Shown here: positions 48,942-62,544 of the stretch, piece by piece
Numbering within the stretch: the first letter of the stretch is position 1
Layout of the letters: the number at the start of each line of letters is the position of its first letter
Assembly (NCBI GenBank): GCA_016183775.1
Contig: JACPDY010000093.1
Coordinates: 62,001-126,000 of the forward strand
Reading direction: 5' to 3'
DNA length: 64,000 nt
Source: Bacteroidota bacterium
GTDB lineage: Bacteria; Bacteroidota; Bacteroidia; JABDFU01
The notes under the pieces: model-generated
The model's database searches: none
Seen by the model: only the letters and a program-made list of their open reading frames with translations
What the model was told of the DNA's origin: nothing
Translations under genes and position numbers: made by a program

Positions 48942-49526
48942 TTATAAATTACTTAAGCTAACAAAATTGTAATTAAATTCAAAGTCAAGGATTCTTTTCA
49001 TGTTTAATAATTCCTTTTCATTCGCAATATTGAAAAAAACATTTTTCTGAGTGGGTTTATCAATCTCAAATTTTTCAGGATTTTCCAATGATAATCCCTT
49101 CAATAAATCTTGTCTTGCTTCTGAAAACTGGTTCAAAAAAAAGTAACAATATGCCCTTAAATAATAGAAGTCCCATTGACGAGGAGATTGAAGAATAAGA
49201 AAACTAAAATCCTCTACTGCTTTTTCATATTCTCCTATTTTTCCGTACAATAATCCTCGGTAACAGACAAGAGGTAACTGATCGGGAGCTGCTCCAATTT
49301 TTTTGTTGGTTTTTTCAATTAACAGTTTAAATGTTTCCAAATCCAGGTTGTTTATTTTCATTCTTTCTCTTATTTCAACAAAGAGGGCATGGAATATCGG
49401 AAGCAATTCATTAATCGAATAACTTTCCAGTTGCTCTTTAGTATAAAGATCACTGTATTGAGAAATTTTTTCTATTAAATTTTCTCTATTATATTCTTCA
49501 CCATATTTGATTAAAGTCTTTTTCAT
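48942..49526 (-). CDS. TPR protein, 194 aa (paralogue family member 1)
   Basis: TPR helices lie near residues 82-150 (LVCYRGLLYGKIGEYEKAVE, FYYLRAYCYFFLNQFSEARQ). An N-terminal helical extension is particular to this copy. It shares the core 'RGiLy...YekA..DF......P....yYLRa.CYF..g.f..A..D.L.aL' with the genes at 61444 and 63271. TPRs bind proteins; the partner is unknown. It lies downstream of the structured RNA and a beta-helix-like gene on the same strand. Confidence 0.65.
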   Translation of the reverse strand: MKKTLIKYGEEYNRENLIEKISQYSDLYTKEQLESYSINELLPIFHALFVEIRERMKINNLDLETFKLLIEKTNKKIGAAPDQLPLVCYRGLLYGKIGEYEKAVEDFSFLILQSPRQWDFYYLRAYCYFFLNQFSEARQDLLKGLSLENPEKFEIDKPTQKNVFFNIANEKELLNMKRILDFEFNYNFVSLSNL

Positions 49527-49543: not shown

Positions 49544-49789
49544 TTAATTCTCCTTATTGAAAATATGTACTTCACCACCATCATTTTTTACATCTCCATA
49601 TAATATACCATGAAGAAATACTACTGCACCTGTTTTTAAAATAAGTAACTCTTGAATATTACCGTATAGCCTTGCTATTACGTCTCTTTCTACAATGACA
49701 CTTTCAGCATCAATATTATTGAATTGAGTATTTTCTTTTACAATAACTCTTCCAGTGATCTTTTGGGTAACAGTTTTAAATTTATCCAT
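49544..49789 (-). CDS. Bactofilin-like small beta-helix protein, 81 aa
   Basis: The sequence repeats short beta turns with I/V-x-V-x and N/G corners (ITGRVIVKENTQFNNIDAES, VIARLYGNIQELLILKTGAV, LHGILYGDVKNDGGEVHIF), as in bactofilin-type or other polymer-forming beta-helix proteins. It is only about half the usual bactofilin length. It follows directly after the structured RNA candidate; a T5 run lies 9 to 13 bases before its ATG. Confidence 0.5.
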   Translation of the reverse strand: MDKFKTVTQKITGRVIVKENTQFNNIDAESVIVERDVIARLYGNIQELLILKTGAVVFLHGILYGDVKNDGGEVHIFNKEN

Positions 49790-49804
49790 TGTATATAAAA
49801 ATCA

Positions 49805-49932
49805 GGCGTGAGACTTATAGCTACTCAGTCTCAGGAACCACCAAGTCCCCACCTCCGAATAGCAAGCTCACGCCCTTTTCTGGACGCTTAACTTGCTTCA
49901 ACGGAGGTGTTCTAAATTGGTGGTTTTGAGAC
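49805..49932 (-). ncRNA. Structured RNA candidate A: long hairpin plus pseudoknot
   Basis: In minus-strand sense, a long hairpin pairs 49927-49932 with 49828-49833 (GTCTCA/TGAGAC), 49917-49923 with 49838-49844 (CCACCAA/TTGGTGG), 49902-49909 with 49850-49857 (CACCTCCG/CGGAGGTG) and 49892-49897 with 49861-49866 (AGCAAG/CTTGCT). The tip strand GGCGTGAG (49867-49874) can pair with CTCACGCC at 49805-49812, beyond the hairpin, giving a pseudoknot. A TGATTTTT run follows, then the ATG at 49789. The same topology with different sequence occurs at 62289-62434. It could be a cis-regulatory leader or a small RNA. Confidence 0.55.
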
Positions 49933-50099
49933 AACCGAATCAGCTAAACGTTATATTATGCGATATTTAATTAAGTTATTTTATGTCATTTCTATTTATT
50001 ATTTATAGGCAAATTTACTTCATTTTTTGGCGTATTAGGTAATGTATGTTGAAAAGTTTGTAGCAAGAGAAAATTTACACGGTTTATTGGATTCGCCAT

Positions 50100-50260
50100 C
50101 AACAATGATAACAATTGGTTTTCATCAAGTGTAGTCAATTTCCACGGAAGGAATTTGATGAACCTTAAATTCTATCAAAAGTTTTTAGAGGAGTTGAAGT
50201 GGCTGAAATCTTTTAATTATTTAATCTGCATTTTCATTGTATCACGAAAATTGATTTAAA
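50100..50260. pseudogene. Remnant of a STAS-like gene and a TPR gene end
   Basis: The stretch around 50160-50215 aligns base by base with 61370-61440 (GATGAACCTTAAATTCTATC versus GACGAACCATTAATTCCATC; then AAGTGG.TGAAATCTTTT in both). That is the 3' end of the STAS-like gene at 61054. The next bases match the end of the convergent TPR gene. Stops and indels break all frames. It marks an older duplication of the 61-62 kb cassette. Confidence 0.6.
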
Positions 50261-50339
50261 TCAAACGACCTAAAAAGTATTAAGTTGCATAAATTAGCAC
50301 ACAAAAAATGAATAAATGGATATTTTACGACAACTAAAT

Positions 50340-50690
50340 ATTTTATTTATCGTACAAGGATTCGGTATTCTCTGTTCTCAATCAAAAAGCTATCCTGACT
50401 AAGATCAACAAGGGTGCAATAGCTATTTTAACAGGTGTTTTATGCTGGACAGCATATATTCTTTTTCAGAAATCCGGCAATGATATTCACCCTGTAATTG
50501 AAAATCTAAGTCATCATTTGGGTGAAATTTTCGGGTATCTTATTTTTCCTGATGGAAGCCATTACCATTGTTGAACTTATTGATGCTCACGATGGATTTG
50601 AAGTGATAACAAAACGGATTCAGACAAGTAACAAGAAAATACTATATAGGTTTTATATCGTAATTTTTTGTATTATTGCGAATGTAAAAA
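50340..50690 (+). pseudogene. nhaD: NhaD-type Na+/H+ antiporter fragment
   Basis: One frame gives NKGAIAILTGVLCWTAYILF and LSHHLGEIFGYL; a +1 shift near 50540 continues FLMEAITIVELIDAHDGF and EVITKRIQTSNKKILY. These are hallmarks of the N-terminal part of NhaD antiporters. The rest of the ~430-residue protein is missing and frameshifts are present. The apparent upstream extension of the giant gene at 50822 is only this remnant. Confidence 0.75.
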
Positions 50691-50772
50691 GGCACACATA
50701 CAGCCATGAGAATACCCTTAAAGCACAATACAATGAGTTCTGTTGCAACATCTGCAACAAAACCTCTGTTTA

Positions 50773-50784
50773 CCCCCCCCCCCC
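50773..50784 (+). repeat. C12 homopolymer upstream of the second giant surface protein
   Basis: Twelve consecutive C, 28 to 38 bp upstream of the start codons at 50813/50822. As with the C9 tract upstream of the SprB-repeat gene, it is a slippage-prone site in the leader or promoter of a secreted surface protein. Confidence 0.85.
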
Positions 50785-50821
50785 TACTGTCTATACCTAT
50801 TCTTTTAAAGGTATGCCAGCA

Positions 50822-53800
50822 ATGCCCCGAAAAAACTTTTATAGAAATTTTTTTAGCAGTGTTATAATCATTTCAGGATTTCTGATTATTCCTTTCTTTT
50901 CTTTCTCACAAGTTTCCACATTCACCAGCGTAGATGCAGGAGGCAATTGGGAAACTCCTGCTACTTGGACAGCCGTGGGTACTGATGTTGATGGCATACC
51001 CGATGCTGATGATATTGTGATTGTAACGGATAATGGTGGTGGCGGTCCTGCCGTTGTAACCATCAATTCTGCCGCTGCTTGCAGCGATCTGACTATAGGA
51101 AACTCTGGCAATGATGCAACTTTAACTATTGTCGGCACAAATTCTCTGGCAGTGGGAGACGACCTGGATTTTAATTCAGGTAACAATGGCGGAGTTTATA
51201 CTTTGAATGTAAACGGGGGTACGCTCACTGTTGCCGATCTTGTAACTAATAATTTAGGAACAGGAACGGGTGCTGGAACAAAAGATATCAATATCACTAC
51301 CGGATTAGCTTCTTTTACCAAAGCTGTAGGATGGACCTGGGCAAGGGATGTAGATGTAGATGTTACAGGCGTAGGAGGGCAGGTTACAGTTACAGCTCCC
51401 CTTACTATGAACACAGCGAACGCAACTAATTTTGATTTGCTGGCGAATGGAACTCTTACATTTAACGGATTAGTTACGCAAACCAATGGTAATATCACTA
51501 ATACCGGAACAGCAGGCACCATAAATTTCAATGGGGGATATAGTTTAGACAATACTAATTCTGTTTTTACTACAATGGCCGGTACAACTGTTAATTTTGG
51601 TGGCTCATTTACTGTACTTGGAGGAGCTGAAATATTTAACGCCACGAGCACCGCAGTATTTTACTTAAACACGCCCTCTACTGTTACTCCAACCTCAGCC
51701 ATCACCTTCGGTCATTTCCAGATAAATTCAGGTATCAACGTTACCTTTGCAGCCGGCACCATTAATGTGGCAGGCAACTGGACTAACCTTGGCGGCACCT
51801 TCACCTCCGGAACAAATACTGTAACATTTAACGGAACAGGAATACAAACAATTACTAAAACCACCGGTGAAACCTTTTACAATCTCACATCCAATACAAC
51901 TGGTCCATTAACACTCGCATCCACCACAGATGTTACTGTAACGAATATTCTTACCATGACTGCGGGAAATTATAACCTCAATGGAAGAACCTTACAATTG
52001 GGTAATGCTGCCGCATCCACACTTACATACACAGCAGGTATCATGTACGGAGGCACTTTCAAACGCTGGTGGCCCATTGCCGCAATTAGTAGCACCGTAG
52101 CTCCTCGTTATGGATTATTCCCTATGGGAACTTCTGCCTCTTACCGACCCGTTGCAATTAATTTAACCGCTGGTGCTATTACTACGGGAGATTATGTTTC
52201 TGCTACCCATACAAGTGTACTATCGGTAACTGATGTAACTCCATTTGCTGACCCGGTAACTACCATTACAAGAAAACACGATGCCCAATTTGTATTATCC
52301 TCCGGTGCATTGGCGGGAGGGACTTACAGTATAGATGTTTCCATGACTAATTTAGGATCTACAGGTGCTTTAGGTGATATTCGCCTGGCGGTGTCTAACG
52401 GAGCAAGCACTGTGACCACTGTTGGAACCCATGCAGCAGCAACAGGAACTGTTCCCGCACCCACCGCAAAACGCACAGGGCTTAGTGCGGCTGATTTAAC
52501 AGGCGACTTCAGAATATCTACAACTAATCTGGTAGCTACCCCTTTAACTACAATGTATTATGGAAGAGATGCCGGTTCCGGCTTATGGAGTGATCCAACC
52601 GCATGGTCAACAAGCGCACCGAGTGGTGCATCCTGCGGATGCATACCCGGTGCGGGCGATAATGTGATCATAAATAGTGAAAATAATCCTATTACCATGA
52701 CGGTTGATGGCGCCTACTCCATTACAAATGTAACCATTGGCGATGGCAGCGGTACTGACTTAGACAATGCAATCCTTACAGTAAGCGGAACAAACTCACT
52801 TACAATTACCGGTACATTGCAATTGAATGTAGGAAATAAAGCTTTCAACTACACATTAGATGCTGCCACAGGAACCATATCTGTTGCAGGCGCTGTTACT
52901 ATGTCAACAGTAAACGCTTCTCAACAAAGTCTCAGAGTATCTACCGGAACGCTTACATTTTCCTTGCTTCTTAACTTGGCAAACGATGTGGATCAGGATA
53001 TCACTTTCACTGGAGCAGGTACCGTCAACTTTAATGGCGGACTTACAGATAATGGAGCAGGCGTTATCACTACCATAGCCGGTTGCACAGCAAACTTTGG
53101 CGGCTCTTATACAAATGTTACCACTGCCATGACATGGAATGCTACGAGCAATGCGGTGTTCACAGGAAGCGGAACCATCACTCCAACCGCAGCCATTACC
53201 TTTGGTCATGTTCAGATCAATTCAGGCATTACAGTTACTCAGGCAGGCAGTTTTGAAGTAGCAGGAAACTGGACAAACAATGGCGGAACATTGGCTCAAT
53301 CAGTAGCAGGCTGGACCGTTACTTTTACAGGTACAGCAACAACAATTGGAGGTACTGCCGGTACTGCTTTTCCAAATCTTAATATTGGAACCGCAGCTAT
53401 TGATGCTACGATTTCTTTAACGGGAGGATTTACGTATTCCTGCGTCAACTTAGCCCTTGATGATGGTGGAGGCGGGGGGGCTACTGTGGTTACACTTACT
53501 CATAGCGGCACAGAAGTTTTAAATGTAAGCGGCAATGTAAATCTGATTCAACCCGGAGCCGGTCAAACAAATGGCTGGTACATCAATGGAGGAACCGGTT
53601 CAGTTACAGGCACACTTACTTTTACAGGCACCAATAATACCGCTGCAAGAGTCCAAAGCATTGTTATTACCGGTGGCTCATTCTCTGTAACAGGTGCTGT
53701 AACCTGGATGGCAAATGGAGGCCCCGGTACAGCAATGCCGGTAGCCACGGAAGTTATTACTGTTTCAACCGGAACTGTAACTTTTGGCAGTTCCCTGTCA

Positions 53801-56800
53801 ATGCCGGATGGTTCAGGTACACTTAGCGTTACCGGAAGCGGAACCATTAATTTTAACGGAGTAGCGGCTCCCTCTTTTAACTTCTTTAACGGAGCGGCTA
53901 ATGCAAATGAAATTAATCCTGTGTTCACAACATCCTCCGGTAGCACCTTAAATTTTTTAACCGGTTTTACCAACAGTAACGCAGCCCTCGTTATTGCTGA
54001 TGGAAGTACTTCTGTTTTTACAGGCAGCGGAACCATTACTCCCAATGCGGCTATCACCTTTGGTAATTTAAAAATAAATGCAACACCCATAGTTACATTG
54101 GCGGTTGCAGGTATTTCTGTAACAAACGACTGGACTAATCTTGGCGGAACTTTTACTCCTTCCACTTTTGGCGTTACCTTTAATGGAACAGGCACACAAA
54201 CAATTACTAAAACAGGCGGAGAAACATTTTATAATCTCACCACCAATACAACCGGACCGCTTACGCTTGCTTCAAATGTTACGGTTACCAGTCTGCTCAC
54301 CATGACTGCGGGTAATTATAATCTGAGTACATACACACTCCAGTTGGGAAATGGGGCTGCATCAACACTTACGCGCACAGCTGGAATAATGTACAACGGT
54401 ACGGGCGGTAATTTCAAAAGATACTGGCCTGTAGGAGCTATAACAAGCGGCAGCGGGAGTTATTATGGATTATTTCCTATCGGATCTTCTACTCAATACC
54501 GCCCCATCACGATTAATTCTACCGTTAGTCCTACGGGTGCAGGATACCTGAGCGCATCGCATACGGATGCTAATACGGTAACTGATGTTTCTATTCCGGG
54601 CACTCCGGGCACAGTAACACGCATTACAGATCAACAGTCCATTATAACCAATTCGGCAATAACCGGAGGAACGTATGACCTTGATGTTGTGTTTTCCACT
54701 CTCTCCGCCACTGGCGCATATGCCGATATGAGATTGGTAGTTCCGGTAACGGGCGGAATCGGCACTCATGTAATTCCTACCGTAACCACGGTAGATAATC
54801 CAACGGGAGAACGAGATGCTCTTACCATTGCAGACCTTGCAAATACATGGGTATTAGGAACGATAAATACAACAACAACTCCATTGAGGCAATATTATTA
54901 TTCCAGAAAAAACGGTAATTGGAATGATGCTACTGTTGGCAATGGAACATGGTCTTATACAAGCGGTGGCGCAGGTCCCAGCTGTGATTGTGTACCTGTG
55001 AGCACTGGAAATGCAGTTATTAGTGTCGGTCAAACTGTTTCTGTAAATGTAGTAAGCACCATTGATTTTGTTGATATAAGCAATACAGCTACTCTGGATG
55101 GAACGGCTAATTTTACGGTGAATAAGGATCTTGCTACAGCTGGCAGCGGAAAATTCACCCCTACAGCCGGCAACTGGACGATTACCCGAAATCTTACTAC
55201 GGTGGGTACTGGTAGTTCAAGTTTATCAGGCGCTTCAACTGTTACAGGAATATTGAATATAGGTACGGGTACGATACTAACAATGAGCGGAGGGGTTGGT
55301 TTGACAGTTACAGGCAACTTGGTTGTTGATGGTACTTTAGCGCTTGGAACAAGCACCATGATATTAAACGGGATAAGCGGTACAACTATAAGCGGTTCAG
55401 CAGGTGCAGCAAGTATAACAGGCGCTGGCGCAACTGTTAGTGTTACCACTGCTAATAAAACAATTTCTACAGGAACTAATCTGACCATAGCTCCTGTGTT
55501 TGCAATCACAGGAGCTATTACTGTTACCAATAACGGCACGGTAACGTTAACTGGAGATATGACTGGATCCGTTGCTGGCTCCACCTGGACTAATGCTGCA
55601 AGTTCAACACTTAATATGGGAGGCACTACATCTGCTTTGCTTACGACCGGAACTCTTAATGCTTCTGCCAGCCCAAACACTGTAAATTATAGCGGCAGCG
55701 GAGCGCAAACCATTAAAACACCCGCATCTTCCTATTATAATCTTACTGCCTCCAATTCAGGAACAAAATCATTACTGTCACCGGGTCCGAGTATTGTTAC
55801 TGTAACCAATTTAGTTACCATTCAGGATGCAGCCATACTTGACGAAGCAGTTAATGGGAACAACCTGACAGGTGCCGGAGGTCTCACTATGACTGGCACT
55901 TCAGAACTTATAGTGCGGCATGATGCAGGGGCTACTTTTCCCATGTTAACAGGAGCATATACTTTATCTGCCGGAACTGTAACCGTTAACTACGGTACAG
56001 CAGGTACGGCAACCATAAGGGGGGTTACTTATTACAATCTTAGCCTGATAGGATCCAGAAATCATAACTGTTCAGCTGTTACTACCATCACTAATAATTT
56101 AACTGTATCCGGCACAGCAGATATTTCCCTCAATGGAATTCTTACCGTAGGCAATGCCATCAATTATTCCAGTACCGATGCGGATGGATGGATATTGACT
56201 AATAATGTTACTACCGGAAGTTTGACAATGTCCACAGGATTCACTGCTATTTCGGCATCAACATATAACATTACAATTAATGGCTCGGACTGGACAAATA
56301 GCAGCACAGATGCTATCGGTTTTGATGCCGGAACAGGAACAGTATTATTCACCGGCACTGCCGCGCAAACCATTTCAGGCGCAACATCTACAACATTTAA
56401 CAACTTAACAATTAACAACACGAGCGCTACCGGAGTTACTTTGAGCCAGCCGATAAGCGCTGCCGGAATTTTAACATTAACAGACGGCTATCTTTATACC
56501 GATGCCACCAATCTGATAACAATGAATGCTGGCTCATCTGTGAGTGGAGTATCTAATAGTAGCTTTGTATATGGTCCGATGGCAAAAGTGGGAAGCACCG
56601 ATTTTACTTTCCCTATTGGTAAAGATGTTCAATACCGCTCCATTTCTATTTCTTCACTTTCCGGTTCAGAAACTTTCACTGCAACCTATTTTCATTCTGA
56701 TCCCAACCTTGTACCCTACGATGTTACTTCAAAAGACGCTTCTTTGAATCATATCGGCAGATGTGAATACTGGACGTTAACCGAAGCAGGAACGCAAGAT

Positions 56801-57586
56801 GCCTGGGTTACATTAAGCTGGGATAGTTATAGTTGTGGCGTGGATGACATGGCCGCTATTTCGGTTGGAAGATGGGATGGATCTGTCTGGAAAGATCATG
56901 GAACTGGAACTACAACAGGCGCAGTATCTCCTGCAACAGGAACAGTCAGATCCAGCACGATAATTACTTCTACGTTTAGCGCTCCCGGAGCGTTTACTCT
57001 CGGTTCAAACAATACAAATAATCCTCTTCCCATAGAATTACTTTCATTCGAGGCTGTTCTGAATAATGCAGGAAAAGTAAATACAGCATGGGTTACCGCA
57101 ACTGAAACTAACAATGATTATTTTACTGTTGAAAAGTCTACTGACGGAATACATTTTGAATTTGTTGGAAAGGTTAATGGCGCTGGAAATAGCACGACAA
57201 TTCGTAATTATAGTTTAACAGACGATGATCCCTACACAGGTGTTTCGTATTACCGTTTAAAGCAAATCGATTATGACGGAAAATATTCCTTTTCAAATTT
57301 GGTTGCGGTAGAGAACGCAAAATCTATAAACTCTGTCATTATTTTTCCTAATCCTTCCAATGGCGTAATAAATGTTATTATAAATGGAGTTATAGGTAAT
57401 GAGGTTTTGTTAATTCTTTATGATGTTTTGGGCAATATGGCGTATTCAAAAACTGTAGTAAACACAAACAGCAACGATTATTTTTCTACAACTATTAATT
57501 CAGAAAATAACCTTGCGCCGGGAGTTTACTACGTTGTGGCGTACAGTAAAAATGTATTGTTCAGAAATAAAATCATAATAAAATAA
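50822..57586 (+). CDS. Giant secreted beta-repeat protein with T9SS type A sorting domain
   Basis: About 2255 residues from ATG 50822 (MPRKNFYRNF; ATG 50813 is an alternative). The signal peptide is VIIISGFLIIPFFSFSQ. The body is Gly/Thr/Asn-rich beta-helix-like repeats with recurring units (TFNGTGIQTITKT, ETFYNLTSNTTGPLTLAS, LTMTAGNYNLNGRTLQLGN). A long module present in the first part is repeated in the middle (FKRWWPIAAI/FKRYWPVGAI, then YGLFP.G). The end has a conserved region (LPIELLSFEA) and a type A sorting domain (IFPNPSNGVINVII ... NIIIK-like end). Likely an adhesin or surface-layer protein exported by type IX secretion. Sequence upstream in the same frame is an nhaD remnant. Confidence 0.85.
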   Translation: MPRKNFYRNFFSSVIIISGFLIIPFFSFSQVSTFTSVDAGGNWETPATWTAVGTDVDGIPDADDIVIVTDNGGGGPAVVTINSAAACSDLTIGNSGNDATLTIVGTNSLAVGDDLDFNSGNNGGVYTLNVNGGTLTVADLVTNNLGTGTGAGTKDINITTGLASFTKAVGWTWARDVDVDVTGVGGQVTVTAPLTMNTANATNFDLLANGTLTFNGLVTQTNGNITNTGTAGTINFNGGYSLDNTNSVFTTMAGTTVNFGGSFTVLGGAEIFNATSTAVFYLNTPSTVTPTSAITFGHFQINSGINVTFAAGTINVAGNWTNLGGTFTSGTNTVTFNGTGIQTITKTTGETFYNLTSNTTGPLTLASTTDVTVTNILTMTAGNYNLNGRTLQLGNAAASTLTYTAGIMYGGTFKRWWPIAAISSTVAPRYGLFPMGTSASYRPVAINLTAGAITTGDYVSATHTSVLSVTDVTPFADPVTTITRKHDAQFVLSSGALAGGTYSIDVSMTNLGSTGALGDIRLAVSNGASTVTTVGTHAAATGTVPAPTAKRTGLSAADLTGDFRISTTNLVATPLTTMYYGRDAGSGLWSDPTAWSTSAPSGASCGCIPGAGDNVIINSENNPITMTVDGAYSITNVTIGDGSGTDLDNAILTVSGTNSLTITGTLQLNVGNKAFNYTLDAATGTISVAGAVTMSTVNASQQSLRVSTGTLTFSLLLNLANDVDQDITFTGAGTVNFNGGLTDNGAGVITTIAGCTANFGGSYTNVTTAMTWNATSNAVFTGSGTITPTAAITFGHVQINSGITVTQAGSFEVAGNWTNNGGTLAQSVAGWTVTFTGTATTIGGTAGTAFPNLNIGTAAIDATISLTGGFTYSCVNLALDDGGGGGATVVTLTHSGTEVLNVSGNVNLIQPGAGQTNGWYINGGTGSVTGTLTFTGTNNTAARVQSIVITGGSFSVTGAVTWMANGGPGTAMPVATEVITVSTGTVTFGSSLSMPDGSGTLSVTGSGTINFNGVAAPSFNFFNGAANANEINPVFTTSSGSTLNFLTGFTNSNAALVIADGSTSVFTGSGTITPNAAITFGNLKINATPIVTLAVAGISVTNDWTNLGGTFTPSTFGVTFNGTGTQTITKTGGETFYNLTTNTTGPLTLASNVTVTSLLTMTAGNYNLSTYTLQLGNGAASTLTRTAGIMYNGTGGNFKRYWPVGAITSGSGSYYGLFPIGSSTQYRPITINSTVSPTGAGYLSASHTDANTVTDVSIPGTPGTVTRITDQQSIITNSAITGGTYDLDVVFSTLSATGAYADMRLVVPVTGGIGTHVIPTVTTVDNPTGERDALTIADLANTWVLGTINTTTTPLRQYYYSRKNGNWNDATVGNGTWSYTSGGAGPSCDCVPVSTGNAVISVGQTVSVNVVSTIDFVDISNTATLDGTANFTVNKDLATAGSGKFTPTAGNWTITRNLTTVGTGSSSLSGASTVTGILNIGTGTILTMSGGVGLTVTGNLVVDGTLALGTSTMILNGISGTTISGSAGAASITGAGATVSVTTANKTISTGTNLTIAPVFAITGAITVTNNGTVTLTGDMTGSVAGSTWTNAASSTLNMGGTTSALLTTGTLNASASPNTVNYSGSGAQTIKTPASSYYNLTASNSGTKSLLSPGPSIVTVTNLVTIQDAAILDEAVNGNNLTGAGGLTMTGTSELIVRHDAGATFPMLTGAYTLSAGTVTVNYGTAGTATIRGVTYYNLSLIGSRNHNCSAVTTITNNLTVSGTADISLNGILTVGNAINYSSTDADGWILTNNVTTGSLTMSTGFTAISASTYNITINGSDWTNSSTDAIGFDAGTGTVLFTGTAAQTISGATSTTFNNLTINNTSATGVTLSQPISAAGILTLTDGYLYTDATNLITMNAGSSVSGVSNSSFVYGPMAKVGSTDFTFPIGKDVQYRSISISSLSGSETFTATYFHSDPNLVPYDVTSKDASLNHIGRCEYWTLTEAGTQDAWVTLSWDSYSCGVDDMAAISVGRWDGSVWKDHGTGTTTGAVSPATGTVRSSTIITSTFSAPGAFTLGSNNTNNPLPIELLSFEAVLNNAGKVNTAWVTATETNNDYFTVEKSTDGIHFEFVGKVNGAGNSTTIRNYSLTDDDPYTGVSYYRLKQIDYDGKYSFSNLVAVENAKSINSVIIFPNPSNGVINVIINGVIGNEVLLILYDVLGNMAYSKTVVNTNSNDYFSTTINSENNLAPGVYYVVAYSKNVLFRNKIIIK

Positions 57587-57626
57587 ATCTGTACAAATTA
57601 TGAGACCTCCTGAAACCATTGCAGCC

Positions 57627-57660
<34 letters not shown>

Positions 57661-57740
57661 AAGGCTCCCTTATATACAATATTCTTGCACTATTTTTTTG
57701 CCATTAAGTACGGAATTATTAATCATTTTAAATAAAAAAC

Positions 57741-58367
57741 ATGATTAAAAATTCCTTAAAAAAATATTATTATTACTACCAAACAAAAGAAGAATACTAT
57801 GAGCGAAAGTTATTCCCTAAAGACATACAATATTTTAATGAGCTATCCGGGCAAAATAATAATCTTATACGCGCAAAAATAAAAATAGAATTTAGGAATG
57901 CCGCTTGGGGATGTAAGGATAGTGTTATCAAAAAAATATTGGGGAAGCCCAGATATATTTTAGAAAAAAGGCATGGAAATATTATTTATTCTGTTTTGTT
58001 TCACAAAGAAAAAATATCAAAATACAAGGTAAATATTCAGACCCATTTCATTGATAATGTGTTTTTTTATGCGTGCTGCACTTTTAGCCTCCTTACAAAA
58101 CAGGAGATTCACGATTTTAAAAATATCATCATCGAAAAATACATGGCAGCGAAACCAAAAAATGAAAACAGTGGAATTGACCGTCATGTTCTTACTGATT
58201 CCAATAACAATAAAATAATTATAAAAGATGATGTGTATTTCCGAATATGTTATCTGAGCGGGAATAAGGATTTATTGAGGATCATTCATAAAATAAACAA
58301 AGAAGAAACCGATAGTCATAATGAGCATGACAAAATAAAATACGATAAATTATACAATCAGTTATAA
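57741..58367 (+). CDS. Hypothetical protein, paralogue of the 58553 product
   Basis: The 208-residue soluble protein has a Tyr/Lys-rich N-terminus. Its centre (YSVLFHKEKISKYKVNIQTH, then FIDNVFFYACCTFSLL) recurs in the protein at 58553 with about the same spacing, as does a later 'N.kIiIk.DVYfR..YL.G' segment. No known family was recognised. It is AT-rich, like the whole 57.7-63.7 kb stretch, and follows the (AG)15 tract. Confidence 0.6.
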   Translation: MIKNSLKKYYYYYQTKEEYYERKLFPKDIQYFNELSGQNNNLIRAKIKIEFRNAAWGCKDSVIKKILGKPRYILEKRHGNIIYSVLFHKEKISKYKVNIQTHFIDNVFFYACCTFSLLTKQEIHDFKNIIIEKYMAAKPKNENSGIDRHVLTDSNNNKIIIKDDVYFRICYLSGNKDLLRIIHKINKEETDSHNEHDKIKYDKLYNQL

Positions 58368-58423
58368 ATTACAAATTTTTGAAGCACATTTTATTGAAAT
58401 TCGGAAAAAAAATAATTGTAAAA

Positions 58424-58552
58424 ATGAACAGAACAGACTATCCCAAAAAGACAAGACAATACTCGAAAGTTGCTTTATTAGCCCTGATAATATCAATTAT
58501 CAATTTAACAATGATTATTCTTTTGTATTTGCAATTTTCAAAAAAAATATAA
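58424..58552 (+). CDS. 42-residue single-helix membrane peptide
   Basis: It reads MNRTDYPKKTRQYSKV, then a hydrophobic helix (ALLALIISIINLTMIILLYL), then QFSKKI. It ends directly before the ATG of the next gene, so the two are probably coupled. Unknown family. Confidence 0.5.
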   Translation: MNRTDYPKKTRQYSKVALLALIISIINLTMIILLYLQFSKKI

Positions 58553-59134
58553 ATGAGCCTAAAAAAAACAATGTCATTTATCAGTAATTACTTCACTGGT
58601 TTTAACTATGAGAAGGACGACTATTATAGGGACAGGTTGTTACTGCCTGATGAGAACTTATCGAACCAGTTATTTGAACCGAATGTTAAAACAATCTCTA
58701 CCACTACGCAGATTGATTACGAAAAAAATATTTTTGGTTGTTCTGAATTTTCTCTGATTAAAAATCTTGGATCACCTGATTATATTCTCAATCTCGACAA
58801 TGAAAAATATAATTATTCTGTACTGTTTCACAAAGAGAAATTTGAGAAACACAGAATTTTACGACAAACACATTTTATTGATAATGTGTTTTTTTATGCT
58901 TGTGATACTTATCAGGCTTTAAGCAAGGAAGATGAACGGGTCATAATTTTCGGGATACTCCAAAAATATAGCTGCCTTAGTGATTATACTGAAAATAGTT
59001 TTATAACGCTATGCGATCTTGTCAATAACAAAATTGTCATTAGAAAGGATGTATATTTAAGAGTCCATTATTTAAAAGGATTGTTTTCATTTAAAAATAT
59101 ATCATCGGAATTGTTTTTTAAAACTGATAAGTGA
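58553..59134 (+). CDS. Hypothetical protein, paralogue of the 57741 product
   Basis: The 193-residue protein shares YSVLFHKEKFEKHRILRQTH, FIDNVFFYACDTYQAL and a C-terminal 'NKIVIRKDVYLRVHYLKG' segment with the gene at 57741. Conserved Cys and the HKEK...QTHFIDNVFFYAC block are the best markers of the family. Function unknown. Confidence 0.6.
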   Translation: MSLKKTMSFISNYFTGFNYEKDDYYRDRLLLPDENLSNQLFEPNVKTISTTTQIDYEKNIFGCSEFSLIKNLGSPDYILNLDNEKYNYSVLFHKEKFEKHRILRQTHFIDNVFFYACDTYQALSKEDERVIIFGILQKYSCLSDYTENSFITLCDLVNNKIVIRKDVYLRVHYLKGLFSFKNISSELFFKTDK

Positions 59135-59158
59135 TACTACAAAACCTAATTGAAAAAA

Positions 59159-60352
59159 ATGCCGAAGCATTATAAAGACAAGACCGTGTATGATGCTACC
59201 GTTGCAAGAATGAATTACATATATACTCATTTTAATAAGATATATGTATCATTCAGTGGCGGAAAGGATAGCGGAGTAATGCTGAACTTAGCCATTGAAG
59301 CGGCTAAACGGCACAATAAATTACCTGTTCATGTTTTAATAATTGATCTGGAAGCTCAGTATAAACATACGATTGATTATATGCTGCGTATGGCTTTACG
59401 TCCGGAAGTAAAAGTGTTTTGGGTTTGCCTGCCCCTGCACCTTCGCAATGCAGTGAGCCAATATCAGCCGCATTGGTTATGTTGGGATGAAAGTAAAAGA
59501 AAGGCTTGGGTAAGAGAGTACCCGGAATACCCATTCGTCATCAAAGACCCAAACTATTTTCCTTTTTTCAGAAAAGGAATGGAGTTTGAGGAGTTTGTGC
59601 CGCAGTTTGGTAAATGGTTTGGCGGTGGCGAAGATACGGCATGTATGGTGGGCATCAGATCAAATGAAAGTCTGAACCGTTTCAGAGCTATTACAAATAC
59701 GAAAAAAGGAACCTATAACGGAAAAGAATGGAGTACGAAAAAAGCAGATAACCTGTATAATTTCTATCCGATATATGATTGGCTCACATCGGATATATGG
59801 GTGGCAAACGGTAAATTTAAATTTGATTATAATAAGATATATGATCTTATGCGCTTGGCAGGCTTATCAATTCATCAAATGCGTTTATGCCAGCCTTATG
59901 GGGATGACCAGAAAAAAGGACTTTACCTGTTCAAAATACTGGAACCCGAAACATGGACTAAGGTAGTAGGGCGTGTTGAAGGAGCTAATTTTGGAAACAG
60001 ATACAGTGAGAACGACCGGCACGTTATGGGGAACTTTAAGGTGAATCTCCCGGATGGGCGTACTTATGAGAGTTACGCAAAATTTTTGTTGAATACCATG
60101 CCTCCCTATTTAAAAGCACATTATGAAAAGAAAATATCCACATTCATACGTTATTGGGAGAAGCATGGTTTTGCAATAATACCCGATAAATTTGATGTAA
60201 CTGTGGAAGCAAAACGGAAAGCTCCTTCGTGGAGAAGAATTTGCAAAGTATTACTAAAAAATGATTTTTGGTGTACAGGGCTTTCATTCGGTCAGACAAA
60301 AAGAGAAATGGAAAAACAATTAAATATGATCTCAAAATATATGCAGCCATGA
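59159..60352 (+). CDS. ibrA: IbrA-type PAPS reductase-like PP-loop protein (DUF3440)
   Basis: The 397-residue protein has the PP-loop SFSGGKDSGVMLNLAI near the N-terminus, then IDLEAQYKHTIDYM, HWLCWDE, MVGIRSNESLNRFRAI and a DUF3440-like C-terminal part. IbrA belongs to the phosphoadenosine-phosphosulfate reductase-like family and is found with IbrB on prophages and plasmids; its chemistry is unsettled. ATG 59159 is preferred over the in-frame TTG at 59150. The stop overlaps the ibrB start (ATGA). Confidence 0.8.
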   Translation: MPKHYKDKTVYDATVARMNYIYTHFNKIYVSFSGGKDSGVMLNLAIEAAKRHNKLPVHVLIIDLEAQYKHTIDYMLRMALRPEVKVFWVCLPLHLRNAVSQYQPHWLCWDESKRKAWVREYPEYPFVIKDPNYFPFFRKGMEFEEFVPQFGKWFGGGEDTACMVGIRSNESLNRFRAITNTKKGTYNGKEWSTKKADNLYNFYPIYDWLTSDIWVANGKFKFDYNKIYDLMRLAGLSIHQMRLCQPYGDDQKKGLYLFKILEPETWTKVVGRVEGANFGNRYSENDRHVMGNFKVNLPDGRTYESYAKFLLNTMPPYLKAHYEKKISTFIRYWEKHGFAIIPDKFDVTVEAKRKAPSWRRICKVLLKNDFWCTGLSFGQTKREMEKQLNMISKYMQP

Positions 60353-60954
60353 TAGAACAAATTTTAAAACAGGGCGCAAGCGCAAGCATGGAAGACAAGG
60401 TAAACATCTATAATCAGATAACCCAAGAGCTATATGAATTCCTGGGCTTAAATCATCCTGCGTTAAATGTTCAGCTTGTATCGGTTGATAAAGTAAAAGG
60501 TAATGACTACAATCCCAATAAAGTCGCCCCTCCTGAGATGAAATTGTTAAAGTTATCCATACAAAAAGATGGATTAACAATGCCGGTTGTGGTGGCTGAC
60601 GAAAAAGACAGCGATTATTGGGTAGTGGTAGATGGATTTCACAGGACGGCTATTTGCAGGCATACGGAGGATATAAAAGAAAGTCTGAAAGGATACCTGC
60701 CGGTTACGAAACTTAAAAAAAAGCTTGAAGACAGGGTTACATCAACCGTAAGACATAACATGGCACGGGGTACTCATCAGGTAGAGTTAACAGCTAAATT
60801 GGTAACGTTTCTTAAAAAAAGCAGTTGGACAAATGCCCGGATTGGTAAGGAATTAGGAATGGATCCTGATGAAGTATTGCGCTTAAAGCAGATTACAGGA
60901 TTAGCAGAAGCATTTGAAGATAAAGAATTCTCAAAATCCTGGGAGGCATCATAA
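60349..60954 (+). CDS. ibrB: IbrB-type ParB/sulfiredoxin-fold protein
   Basis: The start at 60349 gives MIEQILKQGASAS and a 4-base overlap with ibrA; the longer frame to 60268 runs inside ibrA. The ParB N-terminal-like domain has VDKVKGNDYNPNKVAPPEMK, LTMPVVVADEKDSDYWVVVD, GFHRTAICR, and the later box RHNMARGTHQVELTAKLVTF. A helix-turn-helix-like segment follows (NARIGKELGMDPDEVLRLKQ). It acts with IbrA, possibly as a DNA-binding or nucleotide-using partner. Confidence 0.8.
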   Translation: MIEQILKQGASASMEDKVNIYNQITQELYEFLGLNHPALNVQLVSVDKVKGNDYNPNKVAPPEMKLLKLSIQKDGLTMPVVVADEKDSDYWVVVDGFHRTAICRHTEDIKESLKGYLPVTKLKKKLEDRVTSTVRHNMARGTHQVELTAKLVTFLKKSSWTNARIGKELGMDPDEVLRLKQITGLAEAFEDKEFSKSWEAS

Positions 60955-61053
60955 GGATTTTCTATACTGTTTTATTTTACTCATCATAGTGTAATTCTTC
61001 CAATCTGATTCTTCAAGTGTTTAGTATAGTGTCAATTATTGTCTGCAAATTAT

Positions 61054-61443
61054 ATGAATGCGAATGTTAATTTTATATATGAGTTTTACCATTCTAAAAT
61101 GTGGTTAGAAAATGGTATTATGTGTGCTAAATATAAATCGGGTATTGTTATCGATTTGAAAATAGCAAAGGATATTGTAAATGATAGAAAAACTTTATCT
61201 GAAGGCATTACAAGGCCAATGTTTGTGGATATTACCGAGCTATTATATATTGATCCAACTGGAAGGAAATTTTTAGCAAGTCATGAAGCATGTGAATTAT
61301 TATGTGCAGGAGCTATTTTCACAAAAAACAAATTACTTGCTATTCTTGGTAATGCTTTTATTATGCTTGACGAACCATTAATTCCATCAAAGGTATTTAG
61401 CAATAGGGAGGAGGCATTAAAGTGGTTGAAATCTTTTCAGTAG
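61054..61443 (+). CDS. STAS/SpoIIAA-like protein (DUF7793 type)
   Basis: The ~129-residue protein has the C-terminal pattern of Bacteroidota STAS-like proteins (RPMFVDITELLYIDPTGRKF, LLAILGNAFIMLDEP, FSNREEALKWLKSF). ATG 61054 is chosen over TTG 61039. It is convergent with the TPR gene and abuts it. A decayed copy lies at 50100-50215. Its role is unknown; related domains appear in anti-sigma antagonists. Confidence 0.6.
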   Translation: MNANVNFIYEFYHSKMWLENGIMCAKYKSGIVIDLKIAKDIVNDRKTLSEGITRPMFVDITELLYIDPTGRKFLASHEACELLCAGAIFTKNKLLAILGNAFIMLDEPLIPSKVFSNREEALKWLKSFQ

Positions 61444-61869
61444 TTAACTGGCATTTTCAATTGCATCAGGAAATTGCTGAAGTATCGCTTTATTCTTTTC
61501 GTGTTCCAGCACTTCTTCAATCTCCTTTAACTCCTGGTCATTTAAAATTATAGCATTCTCAATGGCGGTTTCTGGAATATCAGGTTGAGAACCTAATTGA
61601 AGTGCCCGAAGAAAATCCTTTTTCGCTAAATCAAACTCTCCCATATTAAAGTGACAGTCACTTTTTAAAAAATATAAACTTGAATCTTTAGGCATAGTAA
61701 TTAGTAACTGTTTAAAATCAATCAAAGCTTTCTCATACTTTTCTGCCATGTTATACAATATTCCCCGTAAACGCAGAACACTTATGTTGTCAGTATCTCG
61801 CTTTAATTTTGCATTACACGAATCCAGCATCTCACAAATTAACTTATGCCTTAATACAAGTCTTTTCAT
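61444..61869 (-). CDS. TPR protein, 141 aa (paralogue family member 2)
   Basis: A helical TPR core (LRLRGILYNMAEKYEKALID, LYFLKSDCHFNMGEFDLAKK) is followed by a helical tail (ELKEIEEVLEHEKNKAILQQ). It shares the family pattern with 48942 and 63271. It is preceded on its strand by a three-helix membrane protein gene and structured RNA B, mirroring the order at 48.9-49.9 kb. Confidence 0.65.
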   Translation of the reverse strand: MKRLVLRHKLICEMLDSCNAKLKRDTDNISVLRLRGILYNMAEKYEKALIDFKQLLITMPKDSSLYFLKSDCHFNMGEFDLAKKDFLRALQLGSQPDIPETAIENAIILNDQELKEIEEVLEHEKNKAILQQFPDAIENAS

Positions 61870-61880
61870 AATTAATCTCT

Positions 61881-62210
61881 CTAAAATCCATTTATTAGGA
61901 TAATTAAAATCGCAATCGCAATTCCAGTTAGAAATACACCCATACTTACCCTAATTGCGCTCAAATGCACTGCCTTATAGTCTCTTTTTAAAAGTATTAT
62001 CCTAAAAAATATCAAGTTTAGGATAAAAGACGTAAGTAAAAAAAGGGATGCTAACTTAACCATTTTGCCGGTATTTATGGTCAAATATTCATAAAATGTT
62101 ACATGAGTAATAAAATCAGCCTTATCGAATAGCAAAATGTTAAAGGAAATTATAGCGCAGAAATTTACTAAAATGAATAGAAAAATCTCTTTAATTGATG
62201 GGATTATCAT
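61881..62210 (-). CDS. Three-helix membrane protein, 109 aa
   Basis: Hydrophobic helices lie at about 5-27 (SIKEIFLFILVNFCAIISFN), 50-72 (MVKLASLFLLTSFILNLIFF) and 85-107 (RVSMGVFLTGIAIAILIILI). No family recognised. It starts 24 bases downstream of the terminator that ends structured RNA B, so its expression may depend on readthrough. Confidence 0.55.
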   Translation of the reverse strand: MIIPSIKEIFLFILVNFCAIISFNILLFDKADFITHVTFYEYLTINTGKMVKLASLFLLTSFILNLIFFRIILLKRDYKAVHLSAIRVSMGVFLTGIAIAILIILINGF

Positions 62211-62233
62211 GGTTATGTGTTTAAATTGGTTTC

Positions 62234-62270
62234 ATAAAAAAAGGGTATGAACCCCATCAGGCACATACCC
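62234..62270 (-). terminator. Rho-independent terminator after structured RNA B
   Basis: On the minus strand GGGTATG, a 14-base loop, and CATACCC form a stem followed by TTTTTTTAT. It lies between the RNA candidate and the membrane protein gene at 62210, so it either ends a small RNA or acts as an attenuator. Confidence 0.75.
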
Positions 62271-62288
62271 TCCATGATAAAATATGGT

Positions 62289-62434
62289 GGGTGTGGTACC
62301 CTGACAACATTTACCGAGTAGAAGGCTCCGCTAAGAACCTACGCAAGAATAAATGAGCAAGGCCACACCCATATAGGTGTAGCTTGTCATTTATTGTTCT
62401 TGCGTAAAATTATTTAGCGGATTTTTCTACTCGG
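62289..62434 (-). ncRNA. Structured RNA candidate B: long hairpin plus pseudoknot
   Basis: The minus-strand RNA pairs 62425-62434 with 62314-62323 (CCGAGTAGAA/TTCTACTCGG), 62414-62421 with 62327-62334 (TCCGCTAA/TTAGCGGA), 62397-62405 with 62341-62349 (ACGCAAGAA/TTCTTGCGT), 62387-62393 with 62350-62356, and CAAG with CTTG at the tip. The tip strand at 62363-62370 can pair with 62289-62296 (GGGTGTGG/CCACACCC). The spacing and the tip motif CAAG...GGGyGTGrs...CTTG match RNA A although the stems differ in sequence. A terminator follows. Confidence 0.65.
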
Positions 62435-62544
62435 CAAAAAGACAATAAAAATTTTTATTTTATAAAGAACGTTACAATACAAAAATAACACTAAAAATGC
62501 AATTTGAGATTTATTTTATTAGAAATCATTTGAATCCCGCTTGT

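Follow-up and report, generated by a model that had tools for sequence, protein, structure and literature searches.

Two minus-strand hairpins in a 64,000-nucleotide (nt) stretch of DNA from a Bacteroidota bacterium (contig JACPDY010000093.1, positions 62,001 to 126,000; the whole stretch is hereafter called the window) are members of an RNA family that is found across the phylum Bacteroidota. Each of the two copies is probably the 5′ leader of the gene downstream, one of a new family of transcription attenuators that extends over the whole phylum. Copy 1 lies within 49805–49942 and copy 2 within 62289–62435, both on the (−) strand, where an initial annotation, made from the letters alone, had placed two structured RNAs. 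Their presence there was confirmed by position and by folding energies of −67.0 kcal/mol for the copy-1 stretch (z −6.2 versus dinucleotide shuffles) and −85.6 kcal/mol for the copy-2 stretch (z −9.5), neither of which was equalled by any of 200 shuffles; the CAAG...CTTG and GGGYGTGR motifs of the tip and the downstream complements were also present as described in that annotation.

Homologues across the phylum and conservation of pairing

MAFFT applied to the two copies alone misaligned their helices, and therefore a covariance model from one sequence, copy 2 (model R1), was used as the start. When 24 kb were searched with R1, copy 1 ranked below only copy 2 and the reverse complement of copy 2 (21.5 bits, E = 3.7e-4), verifying the proposed homology of the two copies, and in the R1 structural alignment most pairs were conserved and 14 were changed on both sides yet keep pairing, i.e. 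the covariation that had been claimed between the copies. A model built from both copies (R2) retrieved homologues in five further genomes and then in nine, not counting that of the window; some of these carried two or three copies. A third model, built from 15 elements (R3), matched 109 of the 395 genomes sampled from the class and 65 of the 395 sampled from the phylum, other classes included, at a cut-off of E ≤ 0.01 (best E = 3e-27); since seven candidates per genome were scored in the R3 search, the copy numbers are lower bounds. About 140 distinct homologues were examined. The genome from which the window comes has one more copy (contig C37:48275–48435, L376), its third, which lies 24 nt 5′ of an open reading frame (ORF) of 475 or more amino acids (aa).

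A GTDB scan with the DNA pattern of the tip yielded at least 80 loci, and among the matches listed the named phylum was Bacteroidota except for one Haemophilus record; R3 confirmed 78 of the 80 pattern loci listed, the Haemophilus record not being confirmed. Two viral contigs matched R3 as well, and in Bacteroides phage Versailles (ON453897.1, L396:2501–2626) a region annotated as a short hypothetical ORF resembled part of the element weakly (72% identity, E = 0.04). No match to the element was found in a plasmid collection, and BLAST of the copies within the genus returned nothing useful.

In line with the initial annotation, whose author knew of no described family with this form, neither copy matched Rfam 15 when the window was searched at gathering scores, and at E ≤ 10 the surroundings of the copies gave chance-level matches only; in 25 homologous loci Rfam 15 found nothing besides one tRNA. 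The family is not described in the passages searched of the Weinberg 2010 list (PMC2864571), of a survey of premature terminators (PMC2965389) or of the transcriptome map of B. thetaiotaomicron (PMC7366714). It is apparently undescribed; the literature search was made largely without subscription papers, and an earlier description is possible. Some looser leads were discarded. The simple tip pattern CAAG..GGGYGTGR.CTTG, run on 100 relatives, gave five genome hits beyond the window copies that lacked the family architecture, and its viral hits in IMG/VR mostly lacked the downstream complement, so that both sets were attributed to chance; a supposed common Bacteroidetes repeat, GGGCGTGACC, returned no paper in a text search for the string, and the family does not need it.

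The elements share a long hairpin, termed the rod, whose tip helix P5 is formed by a tip-5′ strand and a strand B, and a downstream strand A′ that is complementary to B. In a MAFFT alignment of 15 elements made without structure (A7), the tip/downstream pairing was intact in 15 of 15 and compensatory changes were present. Over the larger set of 145 aligned rows, 143 had a complete B:A′ helix, and the two exceptions were truncated or misaligned. Among 64 distinct rows (A8), 87.8% of the cells of the rod helices were paired, compared with 61.7% after shuffling and 35–39% after sliding, with double changes in 31 of 34 pairs; the B:A′ helix was paired in 100% of cells, which was reached by none of 500 shuffles, and four of its six pairs showed double changes. 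The counts from A8 and from a further alignment, A9, lean towards the model because both alignments were fitted to it. Every A′ variant keeps pairing, many via G·U, and members from distant classes pair with different sequences, e.g. GGACGC/GCGTCC. The G·U pairs and compensatory changes in the tip/downstream helix argue for pairing in RNA. Chance inverted repeats, for which the AT-rich setting and nothing else speaks, are contradicted by this covariation, by the fold z-scores and by hundreds of model matches, and their probability as an explanation is negligible.

Transcription signals and leader position

A −7 promoter box, TAnnTTTG, peaks 28–67 nt upstream of the element on the coding strand only, and was present 24–80 nt upstream in 101 of 139 elements versus 3 of 135 in a control window. 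The other end is marked by a U-tract, which ends 119 of 141 elements: a terminal run of five or more T was found in 84% of elements versus 13% and 9% in control windows, and a run of at least four U begins 0–4 nt past A′ in 121 of 140. In copy 1 the candidate box (TAAATTTG, 50010–50017, (−) strand), which was assigned by its position and by the enrichment of TAnnTTTG upstream of the family, is followed by a small 5′ motif in the P0 region (ACGTTTAGC, 49943–49951, (−)), and the U-tract region (ATTTTTATATAC) occupies 49791–49802 (−); the candidate box of copy 2 (TATTTTTG) is at 62480–62487 (−). The P0 region contains a GC-N4/5-GC mini-hairpin in 80 of 141 family members. Taken together, the box and U-tract counts speak for this very strand as the transcribed one. 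In Flavobacterium-type loci (e.g. L214, L221 and L236) two TAnnTTTG boxes recur 20 nt apart, at about −52 and −32, between the element and a divergently oriented helix-turn-helix (HTH) gene that starts ∼115–150 nt upstream of the element, and could be tandem promoters or an operator.

These signals bear on whether the repeats act as DNA, either as an attC-like recombination site that folds as a single strand or as a mobile repeat of another kind. A tyrosine integrase and what seems to be a tRNA 3′ end are found close to copy 2, some other loci stand beside integrases or in settings like those of conjugative transposons, and there is the partial match in a phage, all of which suit a DNA-level element; however, the promoter box and U-tract are strand-specific and sit at fixed positions, G·U pairs are widespread, and the orientation to the next gene is consistent. 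Judged from these transcription signals, not from an attC model, a DNA-level role is very improbable.

The elements are also placed as leaders. With ORFs called by a simple script, by which some starts will be wrong, the next ORF was co-oriented with the element in 119 of 141 cases, and 58 of these 119 genes start within 60 nt of it, leaving little room for a promoter; a canonical promoter between element and gene was absent in 118 of the 119, a single −7 box being found overall. Downstream of copy 1 are an ORF of 81 aa without a Pfam match (49544–49789, (−)) and a tetratricopeptide repeat (TPR) protein of 194 aa (48942–49526, (−)); copy 2 leads an ORF of 109 aa (61881–62210, (−)), a similar protein to which is found 3′ of the element of locus L172 in another genome, followed by a TPR protein of 141 aa (61444–61869, (−)). 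A short ORF and then a TPR gene thus follow each copy, as had been noted at the outset. The TPR association stood at both copies but the TPR gene is not a general partner in the family, which leads SusC, response-regulator, extracytoplasmic function (ECF) sigma factor, HTH and secreted-protein genes. Of 110 downstream proteins, 26 matched a SusC/RagA model, 11 a response-regulator domain and five sigma-70 region 2, and secreted proteins were also present among them. Related elements were found before related genes: copy 2 and L172 both precede a 109-aa protein, a TPR gene and a DUF7793-like gene, L173 and L174 both precede CheY-like genes, and L176 and L178 both precede a coil peptide.

A stand-alone, trans-acting small RNA (sRNA) of ∼200 nt that ends at the U-tract, with the genes merely adjacent, would equally have its own promoter box and U-tract, and it would suit the several paralogues per genome, the strong extra terminator of copy 2 and L172, and the existence of multicopy sRNA families such as FopS in Bacteroides (PMC11697453). 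Against it stand the co-oriented genes, often 20–60 nt away with no canonical promoter between, the persistence of related elements with related genes, and the two-partner design, which is that of an attenuator. We consider such an sRNA unlikely as the explanation, though a leader that has been terminated could double as one.

Alternative folds and proposed attenuation

The complementarity of the downstream strand is wider than the eight tip nt initially reported, covering the whole tip 3′ strand and the adjoining stem strand, with an extended duplex of −30.1 kcal/mol in copy 1 and −25.1 kcal/mol in copy 2. Across the family, P5, in which B pairs the tip-5′ strand, has a mean of −14.6 kcal/mol versus −17.1 for the B:A′ duplex, and the two are mutually exclusive because both use B. 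The duplex of B plus adjoining stem strand with the whole linker plus A′ reached a mean of −25.2 kcal/mol, compared with −21.5 when linkers were swapped between elements and −18.0 when they were shuffled. The initial annotation was thus right about the tip/downstream complementarity, but the static pseudoknot that it proposed is explained better by two alternative folds, the rod and a terminator-like hairpin.

When folded alone, the 3′ half forms a hairpin that is closed by B:A′ in 139 of 140 elements, with an outer stem of ∼19.5 bp (mean of the 3′ half −28.7 kcal/mol, mean z −4.2). An inner hairpin is present in 138 of the 140, and the inner part has −5.4 kcal/mol versus −2.6 for shuffles. 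In copy 1 the 5′ half, the proposed antiterminator strand, comprises the 5′ arms of helices H1–H4 and of P5 (49882–49942, (−)), and the 3′ half (49805–49875, (−)), the proposed terminator stem-loop, folds at −37.1 kcal/mol; strand B (GGGCGTGAGC, 49866–49875, (−)) is contested by the tip-5′ strand and A′ (CTCACGCC, 49805–49812, (−)). The corresponding features of copy 2 are a proposed antiterminator strand at 62376–62435 (−), a 3′ half at 62289–62370 (−) that folds at −34.0 kcal/mol, B at 62361–62370 (−; GGGTGTGGCC) and A′ at 62289–62296 (−; CCACACCC). Copy 2 and L172 have no immediate U-tract, and a strong terminator-like hairpin stands 20–30 nt further on in both, which in copy 2 is a separate intrinsic-terminator hairpin (GGGTATG...CATACCC-T7, 62236–62272, (−)); its 5′ arm can pair A′, at −11.0 kcal/mol in copy 2 and −13.2 kcal/mol in L172. 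By sequence and folding, the elements hence present what is expected of an attenuator, i.e. an alternative terminator hairpin with a U-tract that competes with an antiterminator.

A different reading of the same helices is a ligand-binding riboswitch, whose bound form would be the rod together with the B:A′ pseudoknot, as the initial annotation had it, and whose binding site would be the conserved AAA and CC of the internal loops. The nearly complete conservation of B:A′, its tight B-to-A′ spacing (50–66 nt) and the near invariance of AAA and CC in the first internal loop are compatible with it. But strongly conserved unpaired positions are few, the inner hairpin of the alternative fold accounts for the 3′ strands of the internal loops, the complementarity runs through the linker so that a full rod and a full downstream helix cannot share it, and the unrelated downstream genes suggest no single metabolite. 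On balance a riboswitch of this form appears a little less probable even than the sRNA.

Returning to attenuation, from the conserved folds, promoter box, U-tract and leader position, which the comparisons have shown at the sequence level, we infer termination and the assignment of ON and OFF states as follows. A vegetative promoter (TAnnTTTG) would start the RNA tens of nt before the hairpin, and the central strand, B with the adjoining stem strand, would then have two mutually exclusive partners. In the ON state the earlier-made 5′ half, competing for the central strand as an antiterminator, would pair it into the long rod, the U-tract would have no hairpin before it, and polymerase would read through. 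In the OFF state the 5′ half would be captured, and the central strand would pair the later-made downstream strand into a ∼19-bp hairpin before the U-tract, at which transcription would stop. In copy 2 and L172 the same logic could apply one step removed: free A′ could block the separate terminator and allow read-through, and A′ captured by B would permit termination. Since the rod has the greater stability and is built from the strands transcribed earliest, read-through would be the default, and the gene would be turned off by a factor acting on the 5′ half. Our best guess for that factor is an RNA-binding protein or ligand that acts on the nascent 5′ half during transcription, which seem likelier than a ribosome because the 5′ region has no conserved ORF. 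Leader-peptide attenuation was not supported, ATG-initiated leader ORFs being scarce: considering ATG starts only, ORFs of at least eight codons occurred in 5 of 103 leaders, with a mean longest ORF of 1.3 codons versus 4.7 in shuffled sequences.

Several points weigh against attenuation. With a mean of −51.6 kcal/mol, the rod greatly exceeds the 3′ hairpin in stability, and OFF therefore requires an active factor; the 5′ half alone is without structure (z +0.2), so there is no obvious aptamer. The genes of the SusC group start ∼190–400 nt past the U-tract, which leaves room for other regulation, and the downstream genes are diverse in function. Finally, A8 and A9 were aligned by the model itself, and the GTDB pattern loci had been picked by their B and tip-5′ strands, which leaves A′ as the only part that varies independently in them.

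Surrounding loci and relation to known systems

Small HTH genes are frequent upstream of the elements. Among 66 upstream neighbours, 37 matched HTH_3 and 12 matched HTH_17; these neighbours were chosen from loci with a suspected small regulator, and the counts are therefore not an unbiased rate. In the Flavobacterium-type loci L213, L181, L235 and L259, a second similar hairpin (GGNCCTCTRC...GCRGAGGACC) and other shared blocks were observed in the spacer that separates the element from susC, and may represent a further leader element.

Immediately beyond the right end of the window, a tyrosine integrase of 440 aa (L129:2765–4330, contig C93) stands beside an apparent tRNA 3′ end, so that a genomic island inserted at a tRNA may contain copy 2 and the TPR genes. 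The arrangement at L172 is similar, with a tRNA-like sequence, integrase, element, 109-aa gene, TPR gene and DUF7793-like gene in this order. An apparent end of a DUF7793 gene at 50120–50240, near copy 1, resembles the intact DUF7793 gene (61039–61443) beside the TPR gene of copy 2, as would be expected if the entire locus had been duplicated long ago. Three TPR paralogues on the contig are alike, with 39% and 31% identity to the third, the remaining matches in the genus being weak generic TPRs. Between the copies (59150–60954), a PAPS-reductase/DUF3440 gene followed by a ParB_N gene resembles the IbrA/IbrB pair.

Like known attenuator leaders (transcriptional riboswitches, T-box and ribosomal-protein leaders), the family has a 5′ untranslated position, mutually exclusive helices sharing one strand, and a GC-rich hairpin followed by a U-tract; unlike them, it was found without a separate aptamer and without a leader peptide, and it occurs phylum-wide before unrelated genes instead of being bound to one pathway. 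FopS/GibS shares with it the Bacteroidota host, several copies per genome, an own vegetative promoter and a link to SusC (PMC11697453). However, FopS is a single-stranded 5′ stretch plus one terminator hairpin that acts in trans (PMC11697453), whereas the new family, compared with FopS by description, is a long two-partner structure before a gene; the FopS/GibS Rfam model had no match in the window and 25 loci, assuming that the deposited model is within release 15. In Flavobacterium psychrophilum 64 structured 5′ regions have been listed, many without Rfam hits (PMC9723704), and Rfp18 and the unnamed regions among them resemble the family in being structured RNAs of flavobacteria; Rfp18 is set apart by its description, and overlap with an unnamed entry is possible, the sequences not having been compared (PMC9723704).

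The two folds proposed here predict opposite effects of simple mutations. To our knowledge little is known of the regulatory RNAs of Bacteroidota, and SusC-type transporters are central to the ecology of the phylum. Present in 109 of the 395 genomes sampled from the class, frequently more than once per genome, and standing ahead of genes for SusC, ECF sigma factors and response regulators, a leader that is missing from Rfam 15 would be a widespread, unassigned cis-regulatory RNA. We tentatively raise the possibility that one global signal, such as a small alarmone or an RNA-binding protein common to the phylum, targets all nascent 5′ halves as one regulon; if true, that regulon would tie the uptake of nutrients across the outer membrane to ECF sigma factors, response regulators and island genes. 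Identifying what captures the 5′ half could expose a shared signal.
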